Source of the DNA: Candidatus Poribacteria bacterium
GTDB lineage: Bacteria; Poribacteria; DTPJ01; WJIO01
Reading direction: 5' to 3'
DNA: 50,035 bases
NCBI GenBank assembly: GCA_014730235.1
Contig: WJIO01000240.1
Location: 1 to 50,035 of the forward strand
Shown: in pieces, positions 49,037-49,850 of the stretch
How positions within the stretch are numbered: the stretch's first letter is position 1
Layout: every line of letters begins with the position of its first letter
Translations under genes and position numbers: made by a program
The notes under the pieces: model-generated
The model's input: the letters and a program-made list of their open reading frames with translations, nothing else
Database searches by the model: none
What the model was told of the DNA's origin: nothing

Positions 49037-49221
49037 TTATTTAATGACTCTGATAAGGCAGGTATTTATTAAGCGAACATCAGGAATAATATTGGTAATC
49101 TCTAAGGTTAAATATTATTGAAAGCATCAATAGAAATTTAGCACCTTTTAGGTATCATGTCAATGAATAATATAAAATCTCTTATGGAGGATTTCATTAA
49201 TTGTTAAACAGGAGTAAAAAT

Positions 49222-49407
49222 ATGGTTATAAAGGTTATATTAGGTGCATTAATAGGCGGGGGGGTTGGTTTTTTGCTGAATCAACTTACCTCCAAATTAT
49301 CATCTCCGGGCGGATTTAAATGAGCAGGTACAGCGAATCCTTATGTTAGTATTGCACTTGGTGTTATACTGGGGATTCTAATCGCCTCAGGTGGAGGCGG
49401 AAAATAA
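49222..49407 (+). CDS. Candidate selenoprotein: DUF6132-like small membrane protein with in-frame TGA
   Basis: Reading through TGA at 49321-49323 gives 61 residues: helix 1 VILGALIGGGVGFLLNQL (5-22), a loop with U34 in GGFK-U-AGTANPY, and helix 2 VSIALGVILGILIAS (42-56). DUF6132-type two-helix proteins have a conserved 'CPITSNPY' at this place, so the TGA replaces the cysteine and NPY is in register; this alignment is from memory of the family. The stop TAA is at 49405. AGGAG lies about 7 nt before the ATG. A hairpin compatible with a bacterial SECIS follows the TGA (49333-49355). The other cysteine of the family loop is missing here. If Sec is not inserted, only a 33-residue peptide is made. 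No selenocysteine machinery genes are in the window. Confidence 0.6.
49333..49355 (+). promoter_or_regulatory. Possible bacterial SECIS hairpin after the TGA
   Basis: Pairs G33-C55, C34-G54, A36-T53, A37-T52, T38-A51 and C39-G49 (last two digits of position) leave a bulged G, a bulged T and a 9-nt loop CTTATGTTA. The loop starts 17 nt after the TGA and includes GTT, within the usual range for SelB-binding hairpins. The stem is weak. Confidence 0.4.
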
Positions 49408-49426: not shown

Positions 49427-49633
49427 ATGGCTCAGGGAAAACAACTGGAGAATAGTATTGAAGAAAGGATTTCAGTAAGGGAAGATTCGCCATTTAATGA
49501 CACCATTCTTGATATTATTATGAACAGTCATAAAGCCATACCTGATGTAGTTATCAGGACTGCAGAATTGATAGCTTATGGATACAGGATTAAAGCTGAC
49601 TTTATTGGCGGAGTTGGGTTAAATACATTCTGA
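49427..49633 (+). CDS. Small protein of unknown function
   Basis: A 68-residue protein with no membrane segment or signal. It begins MAQGKQLENSIEERISV and contains ILDIIMNSHKAIPDVVIRTAELIAYGYRI, which looks like two amphipathic helices. No family is recognised. The ATG at 49427 has AAAGGA about 6 nt upstream; a GTG at 49391 would overlap the candidate selenoprotein and is less likely. It lies 19 nt after that gene's TAA, so the two may be co-transcribed. Confidence 0.5.
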   Translation: MAQGKQLENSIEERISVREDSPFNDTILDIIMNSHKAIPDVVIRTAELIAYGYRIKADFIGGVGLNTF

Positions 49634-49810: not shown

Positions 49811-49850
49811 AAAAATACCGGGTGTTTATTGATACATCCGGTATTTTTAT
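49811..49850 (+). terminator. Rho-independent terminator
   Basis: AAAAATACCGGGTGT pairs with ACATCCGGTATTTTT over about 15 bp (one G-T pair) around an 8-nt loop, ending in a T-run. It probably closes the transcript of the candidate selenoprotein and the 68-residue ORF and may work in both directions. Confidence 0.85.

Follow-up and report, generated by a model that had tools for sequence, protein, structure and literature searches.

Does the TGA at codon 34 of a very short reading frame end the gene, or does it encode an amino acid, and if so what might that residue do? The frame lies at 49222-49407 of the window, by which we mean the whole stretch of 50,035 nucleotides analysed here, from a Candidatus Poribacteria genome. 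A first-pass annotation had proposed that it encodes a selenoprotein. It begins at ATG 49222, has a single TGA, and closes with TAA at 49405-49407. As the annotation claimed, it stays open across the TGA, and from ATG to TAA it specifies the 61 residues MVIKVILGALIGGGVGFLLNQLTSKLSSPGGFKUAGTANPYVSIALGVILGILIASGGGGK. The standard code offers here only a frame of 40 codons with an upstream TTG start, so that ordinary gene callers would indeed miss the gene, and reading UGA as a stop would leave a product of 33 residues. The features are as follows.

49210-49214, forward strand: Shine-Dalgarno-like AGGAG, 7 nt 5' of the ATG (from sequence)
49222-49407, forward strand: gene for a predicted membrane selenoprotein, 61 residues, stop TAA (from the read-through frame and homologues)
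49225-49299, forward strand: helix 1, residues 2-26, glycine-rich, presumed transmembrane (AlphaFold2, low confidence)
49321-49323, forward strand: TGA, putative U34, at the family's invariant Cys position (homologue alignment)
49335-49378, forward strand: hairpin with a 9-bp closing stem GAATCCTTA/TGGGGATTC, presumed SECIS element (RNA folding)
49339-49392, forward strand: helix 2, residues 40-57, presumed transmembrane (AlphaFold2, low confidence)
49427-49633, forward strand: downstream gene of 68 codons with its own AAAGGA site, probably co-transcribed (from sequence)

TGA terminates 4 of the 28 open frames of at least 200 codons in the window. It is therefore an ordinary stop elsewhere, as previously stated, and any recoding would be local. 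The two membrane helices described earlier are also predicted by AlphaFold2, but the confidence of the model is low (mean pLDDT 65).

The downstream gene has no relatives that we could find in the phylum. It ends at TGA 49631, and reading on to 49657 would add UFGCGTYL before the next stop, giving a UxxC motif. No unusual RNA fold was seen near this TGA, and a second Sec site here is conceivable but could not be supported. A terminator-like inverted repeat (AAAATACCGG...CCGGTATTTTTA), spotted by eye, lies 3' of the two-gene unit at 49811-49849.

Further evidence comes from homologues. Single-sequence scans of genome contigs, viral contigs and plasmids gave no match. A search of genome contigs with an alignment as query found Cys forms in a 'Chloroflexi' MAG and in a Deltaproteobacteria/Myxococcota MAG. 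The Pfam DUF6132 model was then run over 149 genomes of the phylum of the 'Chloroflexi' MAG, and gave a TGA form in genome G224 (GSTUGLMCNPW). A six-sequence profile, run over 377 genomes of the Myxococcota-type phylum, identified carriers in 54 of them. Six of these matches hold one TGA each, in every case at the same column, in the context GCDSGU..NP or GCTSGU..NP in five and GGTUSILCNP in the sixth; one genome (G602) has both forms, Cys at L061 and Sec at L082. Within the phylum of the window, the homologue in G016 has Cys (KGYCIFLCNPY). That in a second Poribacteria genome, G059 (contig DTYX01000881.1), is 42% identical to the window protein and, like it, has TGA at this position (ATUAIWCNPY).

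Taken over 55 homologues, the TGA column contains Cys in 46 and TGA in nine, and no other residue, the outcome sought by the proposed check for Cys homologues at U34. The codons of the 54 fetched members are TGC in 38, TGT in seven and TGA in nine, the 46th Cys being that of G016, added to this set; three low-score profile matches (L029, L030 and L041) were left out of the family count. Of the nine TGA genes, two are from Poribacteria (the window and G059), six from the Myxococcota-type phylum and one from a further lineage (G224). Across the aligned members, TGA within the domain is confined to this column. In an alignment of 32 sequences the invariant columns are G12, G16, C/U34 and G47, and the residues conserved 3' of the TGA are N39, P40, G47 and G51. 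The first-pass annotation had thus chosen the correct Cys/Sec column, but had placed it immediately before NPY, whereas four residues intervene (U-AGTA-NPY).

A tree was built with the Cys/Sec column removed. One starred clade (99/96) contains five Sec forms of the Myxococcota-type phylum, while a second (98/98) contains the Sec forms of the window, G059, G224 and G335 together with two Cys forms. The starred branches force at least two Cys/Sec changes, and a constraint uniting all the Sec forms gives a p-AU of 0.058; because the alignment is short, the exact number and direction of the changes are uncertain.

The relation to DUF6132 (PF19628) is clear at the level of the family. The window protein is absent from the Pfam matches to this model at E<=10, but its relatives P0006 (24.2 bits), P0007 (26.7 bits) and the G224 copy (23.5 bits) exceed the gathering cut-off of 23.2 bits, which P0008 also passes. 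The window protein is 49% identical to P0006 over its whole length, and both fall in one starred clade. The proposed link to DUF6132 is therefore right in the sense of a shared family, with the window protein falling short of the Pfam cut-off. Its weak Pfam matches to FtsX, ATP-synt_I and others were rejected as chance membrane matches, and NCBIfam has no relevant model match to it or to the family. It shares with the Pfam family, whose members are Cys forms of unknown function, the size, the two helices, the glycine positions and a [C/U]xxxxNP motif. It differs in that Sec replaces the invariant Cys, and in that the other common Cys (GCxxG) is missing. DUF6132 is not among the 119 prokaryotic selenoprotein families of a 2026 catalogue (PMC13188914 Table 1), and full-text literature searches found no paper on it. 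The Sec form would thus appear to be a selenoprotein family not yet catalogued, although other databases may carry single annotations.

Clues as to function come from the gene neighbourhoods. In 16 loci of relatives a thioredoxin gene of the same orientation lies within 200 bp, and these thioredoxins are mostly of cytosolic type, with no evident signal peptide. Thioredoxin also heads the Pfam tally of large neighbours, in which DsbD_TM and ECF sigma factors are prominent too. One Sec copy (L086) adjoins an MBL-rhodanese gene and has a PF04143 sulfur transporter nearby; downstream of a Cys copy (L034) come TauE and MBL-rhodanese genes; and several loci have nearby proteins that resemble, by sequence, CoA-disulfide-reductase/rhodanese fusions. 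In G224 the 3' end of the gene for a di-haem cytochrome c peroxidase overlaps the Sec copy. The contig of the window ends about 630 bp past the gene, and over this distance no thioredoxin or rhodanese gene was found beside it. Two B-box-like, Cys-rich zinc proteins, 35% identical to each other, adjoin DUF6132-like genes in two phyla (L028 1300-1473 and L033 6091-6261).

The thioredoxin, rhodanese and sulfur-gene neighbours lead us to prefer a membrane-located thiol or sulfane-sulfur relay. The single invariant Cys of the family, or U34, would sit in the short loop between the two helices and serve there, at the surface of the membrane, as a redox-active or sulfur-accepting nucleophile. It may take up a disulfide or sulfane sulfur (as a persulfide), and the oxidised U34 would be re-reduced by cytosolic thioredoxin, alongside rhodanese-type enzymes. 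Lacking a second Cys, the window protein would be a one-selenol relay and would need a partner thiol. We put this role forward tentatively, as somewhat short of an even chance.

It is also conceivable, but unlikely, that the protein is a selenoprotein whose Cys or Sec binds a metal, for example copper in cytochrome oxidase assembly, and not sulfur or disulfides. CcoG- and CopA-like genes do lie upstream in L034, a CcoG-like gene is near L054, L028 has an upstream CsoR-type repressor, and two Cys are common among family members (GCxxGxC). Against this, the commonest neighbour is thioredoxin and sulfur genes occur at several loci, the window form has one chalcogen residue and so presents a poor set of metal ligands, and some CsoR relatives (CstR) sense persulfides.

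The relay has partial parallels among known selenoproteins. The YeeE/YedE thiosulfate transporter (PF04143), which is included in the 2026 catalogue (PMC13188914), is likewise a Sec-containing membrane protein connected with sulfur handling, and it is a PF04143 gene that is found near the L086 Sec copy; however, it belongs to a family of larger transporters, and no homology was seen. Bacterial Sec-containing thioredoxins and rhodaneses show a similar exchange of Sec and Cys at a redox or sulfur-transfer residue, but these are soluble enzymes of known fold, unlike the 61-residue membrane hairpin predicted here.

The two remaining alternatives concern the reading of the codon itself, on which both the RNA and the decoding machinery have a bearing. 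The hairpin starts about 11 nt 3' of the TGA, and only 3% of synonymous recodings fold equally well (rank 0.03). The mean rank against synonymous recodings is 0.10 for the Sec genes and 0.46 for the Cys genes (Mann-Whitney p 4e-4), and a closing stem of at least 7 bp is present in 5/9 Sec genes and 2/45 Cys genes (Fisher p 7e-4), although the genes share ancestry and the p values are thus guides only. In five of the nine Sec genes the Asn-Pro codons pair with sequence around the last Gly codon to close the hairpin. The window closes in this way with GAATCC/GGATTC, G059 with GCAATCCC/GGGATTGC, G224 with GTAACCC/GGGTTAC, and two others with CAACCCG/CGGGTTG. The strict bSECIS rule places a G within the first two positions of the apical loop (PMC13188914). 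This pattern was dropped as proof of Sec because it is passed by 5/9 Sec and 18/45 Cys genes and does not discriminate. The SECIS-like hairpin noted at first is therefore real, and such folds are enriched among Sec genes, but it fails the strict loop rule; a SECIS element is likely, short of proven.

The genome that contains the window (G000; 5.5 Mb, 92% complete, 451 contigs, 4.8% estimated contamination) has all four of the genes selA, selB, selC and selD that the first-pass annotation had suggested looking for. A tRNA-Sec is found on contig C397 (79.1 bits, ARAGORN anticodon TCA, that is UCA), with a G73-CCA end in which G73 was read by eye. There is a selB on C31 (367 bits), and two selA genes are above cut-off (L017 on C246 and L018 on C64, 530 and 424 bits). 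The selD gene (L020 1501-2427, contig C226, 394 bits) has an in-frame TGA in the motif THGAGUACKI, a known Sec site (GUACKI) of Sec-containing SelD. The contigs carrying this machinery match the window in GC content and tetranucleotides.

The distribution of the machinery is in agreement. All three of the TGA carriers that were tested (G000, G059 and G224) score above the SelB cut-off. Both tested Cys carriers (G016 and G084) score below it, and their top matches to the tRNA-Sec model are ordinary Leu and Ser tRNAs. G085 combines a Cys form with tRNA-Sec, so the Cys form can occur in a Sec-decoding genome. The tRNA-Sec search among TGA carriers covered G000 and G059, and no tRNA-Sec(UCA) was found in G059 (79% complete). 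G059 does have a 94-nt tRNA (contig C965, L103 3996-4089) that scores 54.8 bits with the tRNA-Sec model, has a GCA anticodon and U73, and lies close to a putative cysteine desulfurase gene. It resembles a selC*-type tRNA-Cys, although Poribacteria are outside the phyla named for this type in a review (PMC7609411).

A true stop at 49321, a sequencing error or a decaying gene, with only the 33-residue peptide being made, is very improbable: the failure of the window hairpin under the strict loop rule and the fragmented, slightly contaminated assembly would be consistent with it, but in independently assembled genomes of three lineages TGA occurs solely at the invariant-Cys column of the domain, the residues 3' of the TGA are still conserved, and Sec machinery of matching base composition is present. 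Equally little weight can be given to decoding of UGA as Cys by an opal-anticodon, tRNA-Sec-like tRNA-Cys, since although such selC* tRNAs with UCA anticodons are known (PMC7609411) and the 94-nt tRNA of G059 has U73, the anticodon of that tRNA is GCA, the UCA tRNA of G000 is an ordinary tRNA-Sec at 79 bits with a G73-CCA end, and selD of G000 uses the same TGA signal.

Since Cys and Sec are exchanged at this position, more than once, and the Sec machinery is present, we conclude that 49222-49407 very probably encodes a DUF6132-like protein in its Sec form. Considered alone, decoding of the UGA at codon 34 as Sec, for which the SelA, SelB, SelD and tRNA-Sec of the host cell would be responsible, is on these sequence comparisons almost certain. 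Cys or Sec homologues, selB and selC, and conservation downstream of the TGA, whose absence the first-pass annotation would have counted against a selenoprotein, are all present.

The absence of the family from the 119-family catalogue and from the NCBI models suggests that, in most genomes with the Sec gene, annotation probably truncates or overlooks it. The recurrent exchange of Cys and Sec singles out this position as the reactive site in a widespread family, and the adjacent thioredoxin and sulfur genes make its function directly testable. DUF6132-like proteins in general may be membrane thiol or selenol relays that connect the membrane with cytosolic thioredoxin by handing on sulfane sulfur or reducing equivalents, and in which Cys and Sec have been exchanged more than once; this we offer as a working proposal, rather less than evenly probable.
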